Below, piece by piece: positions 6,237 to 51,895 of a stretch of 64,000 nt of DNA. Position 1 is the stretch's first letter. The number at the start of each line of letters is the position of its first letter. The notes under the pieces were generated by a model. The model searched no databases and was not told the origin of the DNA. It worked only from the letters and a program-made list of their open reading frames with translations. A program made the position numbers and the translations under genes. Source of the DNA: Clostridium sp. 'deep sea' (GTDB taxonomy: Bacteria; Bacillota; UBA994; PWPR01); the NCBI RefSeq assembly GCF_014931565.1, contig NZ_CP063353.1, positions 1-64,000 on the forward strand, read 5' to 3'.

Positions 6237-6460
6237 ATAAATAAATCAGCTACGACAAAAGCTACGATTTTGAGTTTCTGCAGAGAGCCGATGGTTGGTG
6301 AGAATCGGTGAAATTATAAATCTTTCCACTTTTAGAGCTGTTAATGGGTTGGTTACCTTTATAAAACTGGCGAGTGGTAGTTAAAATTTAGCTGCAATTT
6401 GGGTGGCAACGCGGAGTTCTTCGTCCCATATATAATATGTGGATGCAGGGCTTTTTTTAG
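6237..6460 (+). promoter_or_regulatory. T-box riboswitch, serine-specific
   Basis: The leader carries the T-box core GGGTGGCAACGCGG at 6401-6414, followed by TTCGTCCC and a GGGC-plus-T-run region (to about 6457) that would terminate transcription. A long imperfect stem I occupies about 6260-6345. The specifier is probably TCC (6325-6327) followed by a purine, which would read serine. Uncharged tRNA-Ser would stabilise the antiterminator and allow serS expression. The specifier call fits the downstream gene but was placed by eye. Confidence 0.88.
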
Positions 6461-6511: not shown

Positions 6512-7795
6512 ATGTTAGACCTAAAGTTTATTAGAAAAAATCCAGAAGTTGTTAAAGAGAATCTTAAAAAGAAATTTCAACATGAAAAACTAGAGCTTGT
6601 AAATAAGGTTTTAAAACTTGATGAACAGCGCCGTAAAGCACAGCTAGAGGCAGATAATTTAAGGGCAGCTAAGAAAAAAATATCTAAACAAATTGGGTCA
6701 GCCATGAAACAAGGCAATAAAGAGCAAGCCGAAGAACTAAAAAAACAAGTAGCTTTAAACGCCCAAAGACTAGAGCAGATTAGTGCTAAAGATGATACCT
6801 TAGCCGAAGAAATAACTAAAATACTAATGATTTTACCCAACATTATTGATGTAAGTGTGCCAATTGGTAAAAATGACAGTGAAAATGTAGAATGTGAAAG
6901 ATTTGGGGAACCAGTTGTTCCTAATTACGATATACCATATCATATTGACATTATGAATAAACTAAATGGTATAGATTTAGATAGTGCTCGTAAAGTTTCA
7001 GGAAATGGATTTTATTATTTAATGGGTGATATAGCAGAGCTACATTCTGGTGTTATAACTTATGCTAGAGATTTTATGATTAAACGGGGCTTTACATACT
7101 GTATACCCCCATTTATGATAAGAAGTGATGTGGTTTCTGGCGTTATGAGTTTTACAGAAATGGATGCTATGATGTATAAAATTGAGGGTGAAGACCTATA
7201 TTTAATAGGAACTAGTGAACACTCAATGATAGGAAAGTATATAGATACAATAATACCAGAAGAAGAATTACCTCAAGCCCTAACAAGCTATTCTCCATGT
7301 TTTAGAAAAGAAAAAGGGGCTCATGGCTTAGAAGAACGTGGGGTATATAGAATACACCAGTTTGAAAAACAGGAAATGGTAGTTGTTTGCAAGCCAGAAA
7401 ATAGCATGCAGTGGTTTAATAAACTGTGGAATAACACAGTAGAATTTTTCAGAACTTTAGATATTCCTGTGAGGACATTAGAATGTTGTTCTGGTGATTT
7501 GGCAGATTTAAAAGTTAAATCAATAGATATAGAGGCATGGTCTCCTCGTCAAAAAAAATATTTTGAAGTAGGAAGCTGTTCAAATTTAGGTGATGCCCAA
7601 GCTAGAAGATTAAAAATTAGAGTAAGAGGTGAAGACAATAAATATTTCCCTCATACTCTAAACAACACAGTTGTTGCGCCACCACGCATGTTAATTGCTT
7701 TTTTAGAAAATAATATGAATGAAGATGGTTCTATAAACGTACCAAAAGCTTTACAGCCCTACGTAGGTAATAAAACAGTTTTGCAAATTAAGTAA
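6512..7795 (+). CDS. serS: seryl-tRNA synthetase
   Basis: A 427-residue class II synthetase that charges tRNA-Ser with serine using ATP. The N-terminal 110 residues form the lysine- and glutamate-rich helical arm (coiled coil) that grips the tRNA. Motif 2 is seen in CFRKEKGAHGLEERGVYRIH and motif 3 in PPRMLIAFLENN. TSEHS marks the serine-binding TxE element. Length and order match the bacterial family. The ATG is preceded by AAGAAGGAG, and expression is under a serine T-box. The gene stands alone, with a stem-loop right after its stop. Confidence 0.95.
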   Translation: MLDLKFIRKNPEVVKENLKKKFQHEKLELVNKVLKLDEQRRKAQLEADNLRAAKKKISKQIGSAMKQGNKEQAEELKKQVALNAQRLEQISAKDDTLAEEITKILMILPNIIDVSVPIGKNDSENVECERFGEPVVPNYDIPYHIDIMNKLNGIDLDSARKVSGNGFYYLMGDIAELHSGVITYARDFMIKRGFTYCIPPFMIRSDVVSGVMSFTEMDAMMYKIEGEDLYLIGTSEHSMIGKYIDTIIPEEELPQALTSYSPCFRKEKGAHGLEERGVYRIHQFEKQEMVVVCKPENSMQWFNKLWNNTVEFFRTLDIPVRTLECCSGDLADLKVKSIDIEAWSPRQKKYFEVGSCSNLGDAQARRLKIRVRGEDNKYFPHTLNNTVVAPPRMLIAFLENNMNEDGSINVPKALQPYVGNKTVLQIK

Positions 7796-40885: not shown

Positions 40886-42220
40886 GTGAAACCTATAATC
40901 AAAACACTACAAAATTGCTTAAACTATATTGAGCAAAACCTTAAATCAGAAATAGAACTCAATGAAATAGCTGAGTTGTGTGGCTACTCTATCGATCATT
41001 TGTATAAGCTTTTTAAACAGTACTTAGCTATGCCTATTAATAGTTATATTGTAAGCAGAAAACTAAAACATATTGCTTATGAACATTTATTGGGTAAAGG
41101 ATTAAATAACCTTGTATTGAACTATGGTTTTAGTACCTATTCTGGTTTTTACAAAGCATTTTATAAGTGGTTTTCTTGTTCTCCAAGTAGGTATAAACAA
41201 AGCAAGTTAGCACAACAGCCTCATGTTCTAAATTTAAGTTTAGAGGTGAATAGAATGCATAGTAATAAAGAGCTTAAAACTATACTTAAAAACTGGAACA
41301 TTAATGTTATAAGTATAACACCCTATGAATATTCAGGAGCAGGTAGTATAGCTAATAATGTATGGTATATTAATGATAACTATGTACTAAAAAAAGGGTT
41401 AAATATTAGTGGTCTAAAAACTCATATTTCTATAAGCAGGGCATTAGCCAAAAAAGAATTAAATGCTGCAATCCCTATGCAAACCTGTAAAGACAAAGAT
41501 TTTTTAGTTGATGGTGAGTTTTATTATCTTTTAGCAAATAGAGTACCTGGTAACTGGTTAACTAAAGAACAAAGATACGGTGAAGATTCTTTACATTATG
41601 CAAAATGTTATGGTGAGTCGATAGCGAAGCTACATTTGGTTATGGCTGAAATTAATGATGAAGTAGAAGTTAAAGATAAACATCTTTACAATATAATTAA
41701 TGAGTGGGCAATTCCTATTGTAAATAAGATGTTAAGACGTTTTAACTATCAACTACCAAATTATTTTTATAAAAAATATCAACAAGAGTTTGGTGAGTTA
41801 TATGAAAATTTGCCAAAACAAGTTATTCATCGAGACCCTAATCCCAGTAATATTTTATTTAATAATAACAGAGTTAGTGGCTTTGTGGACTTTGAAATAA
41901 GTGAAAAAAACACGAGACTTTATGATGTATGTTATTGTGCAACAGGAATATTGTCCGAAACAGAAGATAAACCAGAATTATATCAAAAATGGTTAAGAAT
42001 CTTTAACCAAACTTTAGATAGTTATCACAGACTTAATCCTCTAACAGAGGCTGAAATTAAAGCAATACCATATGTTTTGTATTCAATTCAATTGAATGTA
42101 ATTGCTTACTTAAGTGAATATGATAAATATTCTCATTTAGCTGAGAAAAATATAAAAATGTTATTATTTTTAATAGATAATACAGCTCAAATTATAAACA
42201 AATTAATTCCAAATATTTAA
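40886..42220 (+). CDS. AraC-type HTH fused to an aminoglycoside-phosphotransferase-like kinase
   Basis: A 444-residue fusion. Residues 1-105 are an AraC/XylS DNA-binding domain with both helix-turn-helix units (IELNEIAELCGYSIDHLYKL and LNNLVLNYGFSTYSGFYKAF, ending CSPSRYKQ). After a short linker, residues about 130-440 are an APH/choline-kinase fold. VIHRDPNPSNILF is the catalytic HxDxxxxN loop and GFVDFEISEKN the Mg-binding DFE. The usual AraC member has a ligand domain instead; here a kinase-like domain could sense or modify the ligand. GTG start with GAGGTGG upstream. The genes after it resemble detoxification functions. Confidence 0.87.
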   Translation: MKPIIKTLQNCLNYIEQNLKSEIELNEIAELCGYSIDHLYKLFKQYLAMPINSYIVSRKLKHIAYEHLLGKGLNNLVLNYGFSTYSGFYKAFYKWFSCSPSRYKQSKLAQQPHVLNLSLEVNRMHSNKELKTILKNWNINVISITPYEYSGAGSIANNVWYINDNYVLKKGLNISGLKTHISISRALAKKELNAAIPMQTCKDKDFLVDGEFYYLLANRVPGNWLTKEQRYGEDSLHYAKCYGESIAKLHLVMAEINDEVEVKDKHLYNIINEWAIPIVNKMLRRFNYQLPNYFYKKYQQEFGELYENLPKQVIHRDPNPSNILFNNNRVSGFVDFEISEKNTRLYDVCYCATGILSETEDKPELYQKWLRIFNQTLDSYHRLNPLTEAEIKAIPYVLYSIQLNVIAYLSEYDKYSHLAEKNIKMLLFLIDNTAQIINKLIPNI

Positions 42221-42344
42221 GATTTAGTATTGTTTTTTTATCCTAATTGTGGTAATTTCCATACTGTATATACTACCAAATAGTAAGATTAAATAGAATT
42301 GAATCTTTTGAGGTTGTAAAAAATAATTAAAAAGGAGAACTATA

Positions 42345-43226
42345 TTGATTAATCTATCATCAAAAATTAAAGAAGATTATCCTCATATTAAAAGCATTTT
42401 AGTGTATAAAGAGAATAAAAACATTTATGAACAATATTTCAATAATACAGATATACATACTTTGCATAACACAGCCTGTATATTTAAAAGCTTTTTAACT
42501 ACTTTAATAGGAATTTGTCTAGACAAGGGATACCTAAAATCACTAGATATAAAGCTTATAGATATATTTAAAGAAGAAGTGACAGCAGATGTTAGCGAAA
42601 GAATGAAGGATATTACGATTGCCCATGTTTTAAGTAAAACCACAGGAATTAAATGGCCACCTCCCATTAACAATATTAGTGATGAGCAGGCAAATAACAT
42701 AGAATTTGTATTTACTTTACCAACAGAGAGTAAGGCAGGAGAAAAATTTGCCTATAAACCAGATCCTTATATAATACCTTTTATCATCGAAAAAGTAAGT
42801 GCTATGAGGTTTAATGATTTTTTAGACAAATATTTGTTTGAGTTATTAAGTATTTATAATTATGAATGGCATAGAGGCTTTAATGCTAGAGCAACACTTA
42901 AACTAACTACTAGAGACATTGCCAAGCTTGGATTATTGTATTTGAATAAAGGAGTTTATAGTAACACTGCTGTTGTATCAAATAATTTTCTTGTTGATGC
43001 TACAACAACGAAAACAGCAGGAGGTATGCCCGAGTTTAAAGACTATGGGTATTTGTGGTGGATTACAAAAATAAATAGCAGTAAGGCATACTACGCCTCT
43101 GGTTTTGGCGGTCAGTATATGTGTGTTATTCCAAATCAAAACTTAGTAATAACAATAACCTCTAAACTAGATAGGCCACATCCAGAGAACCTTAAATTAA
43201 TTGAATTAATAGCAGCAGATTTGTAA
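42345..43226 (+). CDS. beta-lactamase-fold hydrolase with Cys in the SxxK position
   Basis: A 293-residue protein of the class C/6-aminohexanoate-hydrolase type. NTACIFKSFLTTLIGICLDKG aligns with the family's SVTKSF helix, so the SxxK nucleophile is Cys (TGT at 42477-42479), with Lys kept. The second motif appears as YKPDPYIIPFIIEKVS in place of YSN, and the third region is YYASGFGGQYMCVIP. DITIAHVLSKTTGIKW is also typical. No signal peptide is present, so it is cytosolic. It may have lost beta-lactamase-like chemistry or use a thiol. TTG start with AAAGGAG nine bases upstream. Confidence 0.82.
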   Translation: MINLSSKIKEDYPHIKSILVYKENKNIYEQYFNNTDIHTLHNTACIFKSFLTTLIGICLDKGYLKSLDIKLIDIFKEEVTADVSERMKDITIAHVLSKTTGIKWPPPINNISDEQANNIEFVFTLPTESKAGEKFAYKPDPYIIPFIIEKVSAMRFNDFLDKYLFELLSIYNYEWHRGFNARATLKLTTRDIAKLGLLYLNKGVYSNTAVVSNNFLVDATTTKTAGGMPEFKDYGYLWWITKINSSKAYYASGFGGQYMCVIPNQNLVITITSKLDRPHPENLKLIELIAADL

Positions 43227-43288
43227 ATAAAATCTAAAATTCAACGTACCATACCTATGCAATTAATAAAGCAATGGGAGACTAAAAA

Positions 43289-43765
43289 ATGAAAATCAGA
43301 ACAGAAAAGAAAAATGCATTCACTGTAGTAGGAAAGTTAGGAAAGGGTTATGCCAGTAATAGTAAAGAGTGGATACCTCAATTATGGAAAGATGCTACTG
43401 CTAATTTTCATGAGATAAAACATTTAGCACTTACAGATGAACAGGGTAATTATAAAATTTGGGGAGCTATGAGTGATATCAATACTGAATTCAAACGCTG
43501 GGGAGAACAGGGTCTTTATATGGTAGGTTGCGAGGCACAGGAAAATGCTATTGCACCTGATAAATGGGTTAAGTGGACTATACCCTCTTTTACATATTTA
43601 ATTGTTGAATGCGATATAAGTAAAAGTGTAGAGGTATTTAATAATATCTTAAATAATTATTTCCCAGAAAATAACCTAACACTAGTAGGTGCAGTTCATG
43701 AGTTTTATCCTGCATATTTAGGAAAAGATAAACTAGAGCTTTATTTCCCAATAGAGAAACCCTAA
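43289..43765 (+). CDS. GyrI-like small-molecule-binding protein
   Basis: A 158-residue single-domain protein of the GyrI-like/AraC effector-binding fold, with no DNA-binding part. KNAFTVVGKLGKGY at the start, the middle EWIPQLWKDATANFHEI, and the end VGAVHEFYPAYLGKDKLELYFPI follow the family. Such proteins bind, and some hydrolyse, hydrophobic cationic drugs. It fits the surrounding group of resistance-like genes. Ribosome site GGGAG. Confidence 0.8.
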   Translation: MKIRTEKKNAFTVVGKLGKGYASNSKEWIPQLWKDATANFHEIKHLALTDEQGNYKIWGAMSDINTEFKRWGEQGLYMVGCEAQENAIAPDKWVKWTIPSFTYLIVECDISKSVEVFNNILNNYFPENNLTLVGAVHEFYPAYLGKDKLELYFPIEKP

Positions 43766-43867
43766 TTACCTAGTTGAATAATTAGGATAATTAACCTATA
43801 ATAATATTATTATGACACCCATTAAATGTTGACTTTACTAAAGTGAAATTTAATGAGGAGAAAAACA

Positions 43868-44692
43868 ATGTTACAAGAGTTGAGTAAGAGTGATTATTAC
43901 AAAGTAGCTAAAATGATGACTGGTGCTAAAGTTAATTTAGAACCAGAGGCCGTAATTTGGGGATATAACCCAGGAACTATTTACGTTGATGATGTGCTTG
44001 AACCAAAATCAGCAGTGATTTGGGTTGAGGGCATGAAGGGTTTTTATTTTGTTGGTGATGCAAACAATGATAGATTTAATAAATTTATAGTAGATTTTTT
44101 TGATAAAGTACTTATAAAAAAGGCTAAAAAAATAAACTATAAATGGATAGAATTTAGTGGATTAAATACAGATTGGGAGATAACTTTAGCAAAACTATTT
44201 AAACACAAAGAGAAGTATGATGAGTCTAAACAATTTGTTTACAAACATAAAGAGATTAAAAACTTTAATGAGCCTAGTTATGAGCTTAAACAAGATTACA
44301 CGGTTAAAGCAATTGATTTGCAATTATTAAATAGTGAAATAAGTAATTATGATTTTTTAGAATCAATAATAATTACTTGGTGGGGCTCTATAGATAACTA
44401 CTTAAAGCATGGTGTCGGTTATTGTGTTATGCATAATAATATGGTTATAAGTAGCTGTGTGACTAGCTATAAAAAACCAGGTTTTATGGAATCTCATATT
44501 CATACCTTAGAGGACTACCGAAAACAGGGTTTTGCTACCATTGCTGTGAGTAAGTTCTTAAACTATTGTAGAGACAACTACTTTGAACCATACTGGGATT
44601 GTATGCAAACAAACTATGGTTCTCAGGCCTTAGCTGAAAAGCTGGGTTATGAAAAGCAGTTTGAATACACCTTATTTGAATATATAATTTAA
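43868..44692 (+). CDS. GNAT-family acetyltransferase (GNAT_acetyltran type)
   Basis: The ATG at 43868 has GAGGAG 9 bases upstream; the frame's earlier ATG at 43853 overlaps it. The 274-residue protein has an N-terminal domain (about 1-130, GTIYVDD, AVIWVEGMKGFYFVGD) typical of PF12746-like members, then an acetyl-CoA fold with SSCVTSYK, SHIHTLEDYRKQGFATIAVS (pyrophosphate loop RKQGFAT) and YWDCMQTNYGSQALAEKLGY. It would transfer an acetyl group to an unknown amine. A terminator follows, closing this group of genes. Confidence 0.88.
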   Translation: MLQELSKSDYYKVAKMMTGAKVNLEPEAVIWGYNPGTIYVDDVLEPKSAVIWVEGMKGFYFVGDANNDRFNKFIVDFFDKVLIKKAKKINYKWIEFSGLNTDWEITLAKLFKHKEKYDESKQFVYKHKEIKNFNEPSYELKQDYTVKAIDLQLLNSEISNYDFLESIIITWWGSIDNYLKHGVGYCVMHNNMVISSCVTSYKKPGFMESHIHTLEDYRKQGFATIAVSKFLNYCRDNYFEPYWDCMQTNYGSQALAEKLGYEKQFEYTLFEYII

Positions 44693-44693
44693 C

Positions 44694-44724
44694 AAAAAGG
44701 TCGTTCATTATGAGCGACCTTTTA
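44694..44724 (+). terminator. terminator after the GNAT gene
   Basis: AAAAAGGTCGTTCA pairs with TGAGCGACCTTTT, with a two- to four-base loop and T-rich end. Confidence 0.85.
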
Positions 44725-44854
44725 TAAATCCTAGTAAGCTCAGCAAAATAAAGTATCATTAAGCCTAAAACCAAGGAAACCTAAATAATTTCACCCGTTA
44801 AATTATAAATATGTTATGCTTGTAGTATCCATAAAATACTGGAGGTAAAGTAAT

Positions 44855-45262
44855 ATGAGCTTAAACTTAGGAGTGGCTTCACAAATAACTTGGTTATATT
44901 TTAAAAATATTAGTGAAGCAGATGTATTTTTGCAAAACACTTTAAAACTAAAACTGGTAGAGGATCATGGCTGGGCAAAAATATATTCAGTTGCTAATAA
45001 AGCATTTTTAGGAGCAGTAGAGAGCGGTAAAGGGACCTTAGAGGCTAAAGATGAACATGCTATGTTATATACCTTAGTAGTTGATAGTGTTGAAGATTGG
45101 CATAAACATATTAAAGCCAGTAATATGACAGAGGTATCAGAAATAGGTGGCATGAGAGATGTGCCTATTAAAACCTTTTTTGCTACAGGGCCGGGGGGTT
45201 ATAAGTTTGAGTTTCAGGCTTTTTTAAACAAAGATTCTATTAAAATATTTCATAATAATTAG
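44855..45262 (+). CDS. VOC-superfamily (glyoxalase/bleomycin-resistance fold) protein
   Basis: A 135-residue protein with the paired beta-alpha-beta fold: ITWLYFKNISEADVFLQNTL, then HGWAKIYSV and LEAKDEHAMLYTLVV, VEDWHKHIKA and the closing GPGGYKFEFQAFL. Metal ligands expected at strand ends include His in DEHAML and Glu in FEFQAF. Members are dioxygenases, glyoxalases or drug-binding proteins; the substrate is unknown. ATG with TGGAGG upstream. Confidence 0.85.
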   Translation: MSLNLGVASQITWLYFKNISEADVFLQNTLKLKLVEDHGWAKIYSVANKAFLGAVESGKGTLEAKDEHAMLYTLVVDSVEDWHKHIKASNMTEVSEIGGMRDVPIKTFFATGPGGYKFEFQAFLNKDSIKIFHNN

Positions 45263-45303
45263 CTAAAAATCTATTATTGTTTAAGTAAGGAGGTTTATCA
45301 TCA

Positions 45304-45813
45304 ATGATTACCTTAAAATCGTTTGCAAGAGCCTATATTTTTAATAATAATAAACTCTTAATGATGAAGAGATCACTGCAAAAAAAATTTGCCCCTGGAC
45401 TTTGGGCTGCTATTGGCGGACATATTGAGCCTGCTGAAATGAACGAACCTAAAAAAGCCTGTATTAGAGAGATAAAGGAAGAAACTGGTTTAGAAGAGAC
45501 TGATATAAATAGCCTAAATCTGCAATACATTATTATGCGCAAAGCCGCATCCGAAATAAGAATACAATATGTGTACTTTGGTACAACACTTAAAACTCAA
45601 TTATGCCAAACAGAAGAAGGAGAATTAAACTGGATAGCTAAAAATAACATTCTAAACAGAGCTATGTCAGCTACAACTAAAGAAACTCTTAAGCGATATA
45701 TTTTACATAATAATCCCAAAATAATTGAAGTTGCTATAGTAGATTGTGACAATGAAAAACCAGTTTTTAATTGGAGTAAAATAGAAGATTGGAATGCTAG
45801 TAGCTTTATATAA
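45304..45813 (+). CDS. Nudix hydrolase
   Basis: A 169-residue protein. The Nudix box runs from GGHIEPAE to REIKEETGL and holds the Mg-binding REIKEE core. The stretch MNEPKKACI between Glu and Arg-Glu is nine residues instead of seven, a two-residue insertion in the loop. The substrate, a nucleoside diphosphate linked to some group X, cannot be told. The last 40 residues are an extra tail. AAGGAGG lies upstream of the ATG. It is 41 bp after the VOC gene on the same strand. Confidence 0.9.
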   Translation: MITLKSFARAYIFNNNKLLMMKRSLQKKFAPGLWAAIGGHIEPAEMNEPKKACIREIKEETGLEETDINSLNLQYIIMRKAASEIRIQYVYFGTTLKTQLCQTEEGELNWIAKNNILNRAMSATTKETLKRYILHNNPKIIEVAIVDCDNEKPVFNWSKIEDWNASSFI

Positions 45814-45871
45814 ATTATATAAATGCAAACTAAATATGAATAATACTATAAAAGAAAATGGAGGTTAATAA

Positions 45872-46723
45872 TTGGATTATTATATTGTGAATAGCTTTGC
45901 AAAAGAGTCTTTTAGGGGTAACCCTGCTGCAGTTGTACTAGTTAAGCAATTTCCTAAAACCAAATTAATGCAGAGTATAGCCAAACAACTAAACTTAGTT
46001 GAAACAGTTTTTATTAAAGTTATAAACAAAAGCAAAATAGAAATAAAATACTTTACACCCCTAAAACAACTACCGATAGCAGGACACCCTACTATAGCAG
46101 GTTTAAAGGTGTTGTACGAGCAAAAGTTAATAAATGAAGGTTCAATAGATGTACTAACCGATACCAGTTATTATGTTGCATTTGTAAGGAATAATAACAA
46201 TAATATCATATATAGCCTTTCATTTAATGAAATAAAACATAAAGAAGTATTAACTAATAAAGAATTAGTAGCTAATGTATTATCGATTAATGCAAATGAT
46301 TTACAGACAAACTTACCTGTAAAGGTAGTAGATTCTGGTTTAGGACATATTATTGTGCCTGTAGTATCTTTAGAGGCTCTAAACAGAGTTAAAAGAAACA
46401 TAGGTAAGCTTAAACAGCTTTGTAATGATTATAATGCCAGAGAGGCCCAAATTTTTACCTATGAAACAATAAGCAAAAATAATGACTTACATACCCGTAA
46501 TATTTGCCCCAGAGAGGGTGTAGAAGATCCCGCCTGCGGGGTAGGAAATGCAGCCTTATTATCTTACTTAGCTAAAGAATCACAGGCCTTAAATACCTAC
46601 AAAATAGAACAAGGTTATATCAATAATTTTCAGTCTCTTATAATAGGTTCTGTTACTAAAGATCAGCGTGTTTTAATTGGTGGAAATGCTATAATAATGG
46701 GTAAAGGTGAAATTTATGTTTAG
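45872..46723 (+). CDS. PhzF-family isomerase/epimerase
   Basis: A 283-residue enzyme of the diaminopimelate-epimerase-like fold. SFRGNPAAVVLV, LNLVETVFI with the family's catalytic Glu, PIAGHPTIAGL, and the second-half signature VEDPACGVGNAALLSYL are all present. PhzF enzymes isomerise by proton shift, as in phenazine synthesis, but most homologs have unknown substrates. TTG start, with TGGAGG eight bases upstream. It precedes the MFS transporter unit by about 30 bp to its leader peptide. Confidence 0.92.
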   Translation: MDYYIVNSFAKESFRGNPAAVVLVKQFPKTKLMQSIAKQLNLVETVFIKVINKSKIEIKYFTPLKQLPIAGHPTIAGLKVLYEQKLINEGSIDVLTDTSYYVAFVRNNNNNIIYSLSFNEIKHKEVLTNKELVANVLSINANDLQTNLPVKVVDSGLGHIIVPVVSLEALNRVKRNIGKLKQLCNDYNAREAQIFTYETISKNNDLHTRNICPREGVEDPACGVGNAALLSYLAKESQALNTYKIEQGYINNFQSLIIGSVTKDQRVLIGGNAIIMGKGEIYV

Positions 46724-46753
46724 TTTATACCTAAAAGAAAGGAATTTTATACA

Positions 46754-46780
46754 ATGAAATATGTACGACCTCCCTGTTAG
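46754..46780 (+). CDS. eight-residue leader peptide MKYVRPPC
   Basis: ATG 46754 has AAAGGAA eight bases upstream and ends at TAG 46780. The codons CGA CCT CCC include ACCTCC, the complement of the transporter's ribosome site GGAGGT (46849-46854). Arg-Pro-Pro is a motif on which ribosomes slow. Its position 80 bp before a drug-pump-type gene is that of leader peptides that sense ribosome-targeting drugs. No experimental support. Confidence 0.5.
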   Translation: MKYVRPPC

Positions 46781-46802
46781 TATGTAATTGTTAGAGATCG
46801 AG

Positions 46803-46855
46803 CACCACCGTAAAGGTATTGAAAGTTCAATACAAATTAAAAATTTACGGAGGTG
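46803..46855 (+). promoter_or_regulatory. RNA hairpin masking the MFS ribosome site (translation attenuator)
   Basis: CACCACCGTAAA (46803-46814) pairs with TTTACGGAGGTG (46844-46855) with one mismatch, burying the GGAGGTG ribosome site. Inside it, GTATTGA/TCAATAC (46816-46833) forms a second perfect stem. Together with the upstream leader peptide this looks like a switch that opens when a ribosome stalls. Confidence 0.6.
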
Positions 46856-46860
46856 TAGAA

Positions 46861-48033
46861 ATGAACTATTTAAATAATATACAAAAACTAGGAATAAGAG
46901 TATTCTTTCATAACTTAATATTTGCTTATGTAATTGAGAGACTTTTTTGGCAACAACGTGGCATGACTGTGTTAATGGTTGTTTACACTGAAATAATATA
47001 TGCTGTTACAATAATTTTTCTGGAGATACCAACTGGTATATTAGCAGATAAATTTAGTCGTAAAAAAATGATTGTATTTGCATCGTTTTTAACACTTTGT
47101 GAGTTTATAATTATTATATATGCAAATAACTTTTGGCATTTTGCTTTGGTTGTATTTATAGCAGGAATTTCTACAAGTATGGTCAGTGGTTCTGAAACAG
47201 CCTTATTGTATGATACTCTAAAAAAAGCTAATCAAGAAAACAAATTCGAAACAGTTTTGGGTCAAATAAAAGCAGCAGATTTTAGCGCAGCTTTAATTGC
47301 TGCTCTTGCTGGTGGCTTTTTAGCTAATAAATTTAACTATGAGTTTAATTATTATTTATCTATTGTTAGCGTTATGATTTCTTTTATGGCTTCTTTAACT
47401 CTAGTAGATGTAAAAGTAACAAGTAATAATGATAAACCCATACCTTTAAAGCAGTATATAACTAGTTCACTACAGGTATTTAAAAATAACCCTAATATTA
47501 CTATTATAGTTGTTAGTGGCATGTTTTTAGTAGCAACACTGACCTATTTAGATGAGTTTTGGCAAGTTTACTTAAACAACCTTAACATACCAATATACAG
47601 TTTTGGGATATTTGGAGCTTTATTTTTAATGGGAAGAATACCTGGTAGCCTAGCTGTAGCTAAGCTATTAAAAAAATATAGTTATAAACAGTTACTGTCT
47701 TTTAATTTATTATTAAGCATAGTAGGTTTTATATTAATGGCTGTAATAAAAACACCACTTAGTTTAATTGCATTAATTCTGGTGTTTTTAGGTTCAGGAT
47801 TAACTGAACCCCTAGTTACAGGTTATTTGCATCACCGCATTGATTCTAAAATGAGAGCAACCATAGATTCTTTTTTATCTTTAGGTTTAAGAATAGCTAC
47901 AATCATTATTGGTTTAGTTTTTGGCTATATAGCTTCTAAGTTTTCCATATTTAGTGGTTTTGCAATTTTAGGATTTTTGTGTTTGTGTTATTATATATAT
48001 TTTGTAATATCAACTAATAAAATAAAAATGTAA
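46861..48033 (+). CDS. MFS efflux transporter
   Basis: A 390-residue protein with 12 hydrophobic segments. ATG 46861 follows GGAGGTG by six bases; the longer frame from 46819 would run through the hairpin. The loop GILADKFSRKKMIVFAS between helices 2 and 3 is the MFS motif A, and LALIFVFLG-like and GSGLTEPLVTGYLHHR regions fit macrolide- or drug-pump relatives. It would export a small molecule using the proton gradient. The leader-peptide arrangement upstream suggests induction by an antibiotic that acts on the ribosome; this is inference. Confidence 0.88.
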   Translation: MNYLNNIQKLGIRVFFHNLIFAYVIERLFWQQRGMTVLMVVYTEIIYAVTIIFLEIPTGILADKFSRKKMIVFASFLTLCEFIIIIYANNFWHFALVVFIAGISTSMVSGSETALLYDTLKKANQENKFETVLGQIKAADFSAALIAALAGGFLANKFNYEFNYYLSIVSVMISFMASLTLVDVKVTSNNDKPIPLKQYITSSLQVFKNNPNITIIVVSGMFLVATLTYLDEFWQVYLNNLNIPIYSFGIFGALFLMGRIPGSLAVAKLLKKYSYKQLLSFNLLLSIVGFILMAVIKTPLSLIALILVFLGSGLTEPLVTGYLHHRIDSKMRATIDSFLSLGLRIATIIIGLVFGYIASKFSIFSGFAILGFLCLCYYIYFVISTNKIKM

Positions 48034-48040
48034 TTTTGTA

Positions 48041-48112
48041 TAGGCGAACCTCGTGTTCGTCTAAGTAATACCTCAAACAATAAAAAAGGCGAAGACCAGC
48101 TTCGCCCCTACG
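48041..48112 (+). repeat. paired hairpin repeat, copy 1 (RAYT-associated)
   Basis: GGCGAACCTCGTGTTCG (48043) and GGCGAAGACCAGCTTCGCC (48088-48106) form two short stems separated by about 26 bases, flanked by GTA(T/G)AGG and CTACG. It lies between the MFS and RAYT genes and may also end the MFS transcript. Confidence 0.8.
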
Positions 48113-48152
48113 AATGGGATGGGAGTTGGATAGCTATTATAGTGAGTAAATT

Positions 48153-48713
48153 ATGGTTAAACCGAAAAGAAAACAAACAAGATTAAAGAATTATGACTAC
48201 TCGAGAGCAGGTTGTTATTTTGTAACGATGTGTACCCAAAATATGCGTATGTTACTTGGCGATATTGTAAATGGCAAAATGATATTAAGCTATGCAGGAT
48301 TAATGGCAGAGAGAATATTAAACCAAACACCCAATAAATTTAATAATATTGAACTAAATAAATACATAATAATGCCAAACCATGTACATACAATACTTAA
48401 AATAAAATCTCAAAGTGATTTGGTAGGGGCGAACCTCGTGTTCGCCTGTAGTAATGCCTCAAATAAACCTAAAAAGGCGATGACCAGCTTCGCCTCTACA
48501 ATGGGTAACTTTGTTAAGTCTTTTAAATCTAAAACCACGGTAGAATATATAAAAGCAGTTAAGAAAGGTACTTTACAACCTTTTGAAAAGCGTATATGGC
48601 AAAGAAATTACCACGATCACATAATCCGTAACCAAAAAGACTATCAAAGAATCTGGCAGTATATAGATACAAATGTGCAGAAATGGGAGTTAGATAGATA
48701 CTATAGTGAGTAA
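48153..48713 (+). CDS. REP-associated tyrosine transposase (RAYT, Y1/HUH)
   Basis: A 186-residue single-domain HUH nuclease of the IS200-like RAYT class. RLKNYDYSRAGCYFVTMCTQ opens the fold, IIMPNHVHTILKI has the paired metal-binding His, and FEKRIWQRNYHDHIIRNQKD YQRIW holds the conserved end with candidate catalytic Tyr in KDYQRI or WQYI. These enzymes act on flanking hairpin repeats rather than on classical ends. Here about 75 bases of the gene (48425-48500) are themselves a copy of the hairpin repeat, translated as GANLVFACSNASNKPKKAMT. Matching copies lie on both sides. Start ATG 48153 has no strong ribosome site. Confidence 0.88.
   Translation: MVKPKRKQTRLKNYDYSRAGCYFVTMCTQNMRMLLGDIVNGKMILSYAGLMAERILNQTPNKFNNIELNKYIIMPNHVHTILKIKSQSDLVGANLVFACSNASNKPKKAMTSFASTMGNFVKSFKSKTTVEYIKAVKKGTLQPFEKRIWQRNYHDHIIRNQKDYQRIWQYIDTNVQKWELDRYYSE
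48425..48500 (+). repeat. paired hairpin repeat, copy 2, inside the RAYT gene
   Basis: GGCGAACCTCGTGTTCGCC (48428-48446) and GGCGATGACCAGCTTCGCC (48476-48494) repeat the external copies almost exactly and are kept in frame within the transposase. Confidence 0.88.
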
Positions 48714-48750
48714 TTATTCTTAAACCAAGAAATATTAACCTTAAAGTAAC

Positions 48751-48823
48751 TTCGGGTGAACCTTGTGTTCGCCTGAGTAATTCCTTAAAAAACCAAAAAT
48801 GGCTAAGAATAGATTTACTCCCA
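48751..48823 (+). repeat. hairpin repeat, copy 3 (degenerate)
   Basis: GGGTGAACCTTGTGTTCGCC is recognisable; the second stem has decayed. It is followed by GGTAGGTAACTTG as in copy 4. Confidence 0.65.
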
Positions 48824-48903
48824 CGGTAGGTAACTTGAATTAACCAATAAGTATTTCAATCAATTATTAAACCACCAATTAAGTTAATTAAGTTTACATA
48901 CTC

Positions 48904-48999
48904 GTAGGGGCGAACCTCGTGTTCGCCTAAGTAATACCTCAAACAACTCAAAAATGGCGAAAACCAGCTTCGCCACTACGGTGGGTAACTTGGTTAAAC
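48904..48999 (+). repeat. paired hairpin repeat, copy 4
   Basis: GGGCGAACCTCGTGTTCGCC and GGCGAAAACCAGCTTCGCC, followed by GGTGGGTAACTTGGTTAA, which resembles RAYT coding sequence just after the internal repeat (ATGGGTAACTTTGTTAA). Confidence 0.8.
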
Positions 49000-49051
49000 C
49001 TCTTCAATTGTTATTAAGGTGATAATTTAATCAATTTAAGGAGGCACTAAG

Positions 49052-51726: not shown

Positions 51727-51895
51727 CTTTTAAACAATACAGATAGCTTTTAGCCCTTAATAACGAACATATTTAAGGTAGAAATGTTTATGATTATCTT
51801 GTAAGCTCAAACACATTTCTATATTATCTATGTCCTTGAATTTAGGATAATTGCTTTGGTACTATGTTAGTGTAATTAAAGAGAGTGTGGTTTTA

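Follow-up and report, generated by a model that had tools for sequence, protein, structure and literature searches.

The efflux pump gene described here is quite probably governed by a translation attenuator gated by stop-codon readthrough, which we regard as the best explanation of a short leader, a hairpin and a conserved in-frame motif found ahead of it. The arrangement probably serves as a sensor of termination failure, in which a stop codon stands between a mini-leader and in-frame codons for Arg-Ala-Pro-Pro (RAPP), and only readthrough would place an arrested ribosome on the RNA arm that masks the pump's Shine-Dalgarno (SD) sequence, thereby switching the drug pump on. In the off state, ribosomes would translate the eight-codon leader and terminate at a strong stop (mostly UAA among the homologues), with the hairpin masking the pump SD. 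When termination fails, most likely under a ribosome-targeting antibiotic that slows release or promotes stop-codon suppression, the ribosome would go on in frame for 3–10 codons to an R-x-P-P (RxPP) motif and arrest there. The arrested ribosome on the anti-SD arm would free the SD and allow the pump to be made, and a long-lived arrest would convert rare readthrough into strong induction.

The window, that is, the whole analyzed stretch of 64,000 nucleotides of Clostridium sp. 'deep sea' (NZ_CP063353.1, positions 1 to 64,000), carries the leader, hairpin and pump on its forward strand. The pump (46861–48033, ATG at 46861) is a 390-aa MFS protein of the DHA1 type (Pfam MFS_1, E=1e-32), and its nearest solved structure by sequence is NorA (E=2e-8), in agreement with the first-pass annotation, which had placed an MFS pump here. 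A same-strand run of resistance- or detoxification-type genes (40886–46723) precedes it, encoding in order an AraC-HTH/APH-like kinase fusion, a beta-lactamase fold, a GyrI/Cass2-like protein, a GNAT protein, a glyoxalase fold, a NUDIX protein and a PhzF protein; the PhzF-like gene is the 5' neighbor of the leader and pump. Immediately 3' of the pump, at 48038–49008, a REP-associated (IS200/Y1-type) transposase gene (48153–48713) has several palindromic GGCGAA...TTCGCC repeats beside it and overlapping it, which makes a RAYT/REP arrangement, and an ABC-F gene follows at 51851. Elsewhere in the window, a T-box leader scoring just above the Rfam cut-off (6243–6431) lies 5' of serS (serine--tRNA ligase, 6512–7795).

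The leader ORF, ATGAAATATGTACGACCTCCCTGTTAG (46754–46780), encodes MKYVRPPC and ends with TAG at 46778–46780 (codons ATG AAA TAT GTA CGA CCT CCC TGT TAG). Its ribosome-binding site, AAAGGAA (46738–46744), lies about 10 bases 5' of the ORF, and homologous leaders have AAAGGAG or AGGAG at the equivalent place; the earlier proposal of a leader with its own ribosome site is thus borne out, also by conservation. At the leader site, Rfam returned no known element, and inspection of the window immediately 5' of the leader revealed no sigma-70-like promoter.

The first relatives were found by a pump search alone, without the leader as a query, and they comprised Neobacillus and Oscillospiraceae genes whose leaders read MY[LMIV]VRPPC-stop and MLKARPPC-stop. 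Profile searches were run on 399 genomes from the phylum, 300 from the Neobacillus order, 291 from the class to which one homologue (L043) belongs and 250 from the Longirhabdus order. The resulting set consists of 65 homologous leaders 5' of the same MFS clade, from Paenibacillales, Neobacillus and relatives, Clostridia and the window's class. In many genomes the orthologous pump is likewise preceded by the leader and the hairpin, and in the Longirhabdus order (Paenibacillales) the leader was present at all 39 close orthologues whose upstream DNA was read. The peptide M..[AV]RPP[CS]-stop is kept across the 65 leaders, bar a few divergent ones, at lengths of mostly 8–12 codons. The RPP[CS] codons vary synonymously among them, which indicates that the leader peptide is under selection. 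The leader stop is TAA in 61 of the 65, compared with 27 of 53 for the pumps' own stops (p = 9e-8); the window leader has TAG. In a sibling genome (G001), the upstream DNA differs and the leader is kept.

The distribution of the leader follows the pump clade. Reading the DNA upstream of distant MFS paralogues (E around 1e-45) gave no comparable leader, and none was seen upstream of three closer pump homologues (L053–L055); two of these (L053 and L055) carry a TATAAT/TATGAT-like sequence immediately 5' of the pump SD and so probably produce no leader transcript. Transfer on plasmids was rejected, since no close relatives were found among 72,556 plasmids. Another candidate, a leader homologue in the same genome 5' of an rlmD-like 23S rRNA methyltransferase gene (L009, G000:C1:3704769-3704804, E = 0.01), was also set aside: its sequence ATACAATGAAATAC TAA resembles the start of the pump leader, reads MKY-stop without RxPP, and shows AT-rich similarity only, probably by chance.

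Beyond the TAG, frame 0 of the window continues as YVIVRD-RAPP-stop (46781–46813), comprising a linker (YVIVRD, 46781–46798), the R-A-P-P codons CGA GCA CCA CCG (46799–46810) and a second in-frame stop, TAA (46811–46813), immediately 3' of the motif, as in eight other leaders. These RAPP codons, which are in the leader frame, had not been spotted in the first-pass annotation. Within 22 codons of the leader stop, RxPP occurs in frame 0 in 62 of the 65 leaders, in frame 1 in two and in frame 2 in none, and shuffled post-stop segments contained it in 1.4%. It was retained in 40 of 42 post-stop segments that are <60% identical to each other. The residue at position 2 is A in 42 leaders, P in 13, E in four, G in two and D in one. 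Because we searched for R.PP to locate the motif, the invariance of its codon positions 1–2 is partly by construction; its phase, the linker stops, the gap lengths and the wobble variation are not built in by that search.

These unbiased features point to translation past the stop. The gap between stop and RxPP measures 9, 12, 15, 18, 21, 24, 27 or 30 nt, always a multiple of 3, and a tree of 63 pump proteins calls for at least 16 gap-length changes, for which (1/3)^16 = 2e-8. The linkers, 3–10 codons long, contain one frame-0 stop in 404 codons across the 62 leaders, compared with 73 in 684 in the other frames (p = 2e-14). The wobble positions of RxPP are close to random (1.7–1.9 bits of 2) and the hairpin still forms, which suggests that more than the RNA arm is being conserved. 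These features and the phase of the motif together show that the post-stop stretch is translated in the leader frame, or at least selected as though it were. An independent start between stop and RxPP was considered and rejected, for 61 of the 62 leaders have no frame-0 ATG, GTG or TTG there; a ribosome must therefore pass the leader stop to reach the motif. Drug-induced frameshifting in the leader, instead of stop readthrough, might also bring ribosomes into the hairpin, and ketolides acting on the ermC leader offer a precedent (Gupta et al. 2013, as cited in PMC10959953). The +1 and −1 frames of the linkers are, however, rich in stops (44/342 and 29/342) and lack RxPP while frame 0 is open, and frameshifting is very unlikely on this evidence. 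As a separate observation, a +1-frame stop occurs within three codons past the leader stop in 37 of the 62 leaders, as if +1-frameshifted ribosomes were removed.

The layout of stop followed by RxPP recurs with unrelated pre-stop and linker sequences, such as MYLVRPPC-stop-SKKTI-RPPP in Neobacillus and MIAFARPPC-stop-DVTASPP-RAPP in Paenibacillales, and further as MNTLPRPPS-stop-AIA-REPP, MYKNKGSC-stop-PYKLMSLSS-RPPP, MKNRKIWFDSGP-stop-HLKS-RGPP and MSIRSPS-stop-VATHSSA-RPPP. A pattern scan of 250 genomes with the gap left free at 6–33 nt returned 26 matches, of which 25 had an in-frame gap (21 or 24 nt) and all lay at this pump, two of them new and at broken pump copies; the 26th (gap 26) was a chance match inside a coding gene. 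Broken pump copies with an intact leader and the in-frame RAPP kept were seen in L142 (G1103) and L157 (G1037). Exceptions are few: L110 has two in-frame UGA stops ahead of RAPP, L079 (CEPP), L168 (RLPC) and L047 (SPP) lack a proper motif, and L056 is a possible leader without RxPP. Separately, the motif Arg is encoded by CGN in 62 of 62 leaders and never by AGR, though AGA is the usual codon for the Arg of the leader itself; a further constraint at the nucleotide level may be at work.

The pump SD, GGAGGT (46849–46854), lies in the 3' arm of a hairpin, TTTACGGAGGTG (46844–46855), which pairs with one mismatch with the 5' arm, CACCACCGTAAA (46803–46814), an anti-SD sequence that overlaps the RAPP codons; the two arms enclose an inner stem-loop, GTATTGA-AAGT-TCAATAC (46816–46833), with a 7-bp stem. 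The pairing of this 12-base sequence with the pump SD, noted in the first pass, holds up on folding: the segment 46790–46870 has a predicted energy of −20 kcal/mol and z = −3.9, matched by one of 200 shuffles. The whole window leader gave z = −2.6, and the mean over 55 homologous leaders was −3.6. RNAalifold recovered only five core pairs, including one pair changed on both sides, at an Arg wobble position; strong covariation is absent because the loops do not align. Origin of the hairpin from a genome-wide repeat or REP element was rejected, the hairpin not being repeated in the genome. The hairpin could in principle act as RNA only, setting a low basal level of pump translation or answering temperature or a ligand, with the RxPP codons being simply a CC-rich anti-SD; their overlap with the anti-SD arm, and the ability of CCNCC to pair with GG-rich SDs, fit that idea. 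An anti-SD has no frame, however, and the gap lengths, the depletion of frame-0 stops and the 62:2:0 phase all need translation. Moreover, in one leader (L078), read by eye, RxPP persists although the RNA pairing with the SD lies 3' of its codons. We consider it highly improbable that RNA alone accounts for the element.

Where a ribosome must stand to open this hairpin was modelled in 32 leaders. From the geometry in PMC10951233 and PMC12992588, arrest in the window is predicted with 46805–46807 in the P site and 46808–46810 in the A site. In footprint modelling, a ribosome arrested at RxPP covers the pairing partners of the SD in 31 of 32 models. With the leader stop in the A site it covers none in 31 of 32 and a single base in the remaining one (L165). 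Constrained folding put the mean SD accessibility at 0.22 for the free RNA and left it at 0.22 when the ribosome was placed at the leader stop. A ribosome on RxPP with nothing on the leader raised it to 0.32, and adding a following ribosome over the leader brought it to 0.55; for the window, the same four states gave 0.20, 0.20, 0.00 and 0.78. The gain to 0.32 is small because ACCTCC in the unoccupied leader (46768–46773) can then take the SD. In the model this pairing requires both a blocked local hairpin and a leader free of ribosomes, so that ACCTCC would act as a further mask in need of covering; the pairing between ACCTCC and GGAGGT described in the first pass is accordingly possible, under that condition. 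The accessibility modelling is only moderately favorable to unmasking from RxPP.

The same models bear on a classical attenuator of the erm/cat type, in which a ribosome carrying a drug stalls while translating MKYVRPPC or on reaching its end, and the RNA rearranges to free the pump SD. The first pass had proposed attenuation of this kind, and its more general part stands: the leader is short and conserved and has its own SD, the RPP[CS]-stop peptide is conserved, the hairpin masks the SD of the main gene, the leader ACCTCC can pair with it, and control at the level of translation is retained in our proposal. The drug-stall switch between alternative pairings fares less well, since a ribosome positioned at the leader stop reaches next to none of the SD partners and leaves mean accessibility unchanged, and no competing pairing of the IR2:IR3 kind was found in the window. 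Such a switch would also leave unexplained the in-frame post-stop RxPP, the stop-free linker and the gaps in multiples of 3. We rate it as quite unlikely.

In the proposed readthrough-gated attenuator, comparison across the homologues shows conservation of the leader and of frame-0 RxPP, together with the hairpin and the footprint geometry. Arrest at RxPP would follow from published work on the same motif. Mutagenesis of ApdA and ApdP in B. subtilis and E. coli found the Arg irreplaceable, and at position 2 found A and G fully permissive and P, D, S, E and V partly so, depending on the peptide (PMC12992588); the natural residues at this position (A, P, E, G and D) all fall within that arrest-competent set. 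The preference for UAA counts against the proposal in one respect, this being the stop least prone to readthrough, yet it fits a tight off state: untreated E. coli shows its lowest readthrough at UAA, and apidaecin leads to bypass of all stops alike (PMC7544508). On these grounds, UAA would maximize the dynamic range of a termination-failure sensor. Raised readthrough has also been reported for macrolides, chloramphenicol, oxazolidinones and aminoglycosides (PMC10959953). Both the role of drugs as the trigger and the choice of drugs are inferred. With the same anatomy, readthrough and RxPP arrest could report release-factor or termination capacity, or set a low constitutive level, with no drug as the signal: the inducer is not given by the sequence, and only the drug-efflux type of the pump points to drugs. 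The downstream gene, however, belongs to a drug-type pump clade in nearly every case examined and is not a translation factor, which leaves a non-drug signal unlikely.

The proposed device shares parts with several known systems. With ApdA/ApdP/ApcA and SecM (RAGP) it has in common the terminal RxPP motif, the same tolerated position-2 residues and control of a downstream gene by arrest in an upstream ORF, RxPP with an arrest-competent residue being found in 62 of 65 leaders, where its translation requires passing the stop. Those peptides are long secretory or membrane ORFs that carry the motif before their own stop and sense Sec/YidC activity, whereas in the pump leaders the motif lies after the conserved stop of an ORF of mostly 8–12 codons, without the long N-terminal part containing a signal sequence or transmembrane segment, and the controlled gene is an efflux pump. 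Like erm and cat attenuators, the pump locus has a short translated leader with its own SD 5' of a resistance-type gene and a hairpin that sequesters the SD of that gene; unlike them, it has no stall site in the leader, its end included, that would open the hairpin, according to footprint modelling and constrained folding, and the effector site is placed past the leader stop. The nearest functional parallels are human AMD1 and ketolide frameshifting on the ermC leader. In AMD1, readthrough leads to arrest (PMC13025110), and its C-tail likewise involves in-frame passage of a stop and arrest at a conserved downstream sequence, as the conserved in-frame coding past the pump-leader stop would. AMD1 differs in being eukaryotic, in lying in the 3' region of the main coding sequence, in stalling at a second stop, in regulating AMD1 itself and in its arrest sequence. 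On ermCL, antibiotic-caused recoding of a leader likewise triggers a resistance gene; the event is a frameshift and not stop readthrough, with no dedicated arrest motif conserved downstream. The E. coli topAI uORF also answers many ribosome-targeting drugs, and the accessible part of its description has stalling at codons within the uORF, with neither readthrough nor RxPP (PMC12121999).

In the literature searched, which included few subscription papers and preprints, we found no bacterial arrest leader gated by readthrough, nor any account of RPPC leaders, readthrough attenuators or RAPP in connection with efflux, though one may have been published before. The antibiotic-sensing leaders known so far respond to drugs that halt elongation or shift the reading frame, and the pump leader would instead detect a failure to stop. 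Such failure is common to chemically different drugs (macrolides, phenicols, oxazolidinones, aminoglycosides and apidaecin-type peptides), so that one pump could answer many of them. If the proposal is true, bacteria would here have their first known arrest attenuator gated by stop readthrough, present across several Bacillota classes, and it would show that RAPP arrest is employed outside protein localization. It would provide a natural reporter of stop-codon readthrough for Gram-positive bacteria and, given that the key codons lie past a stop, would point to resistance control that annotation has missed.
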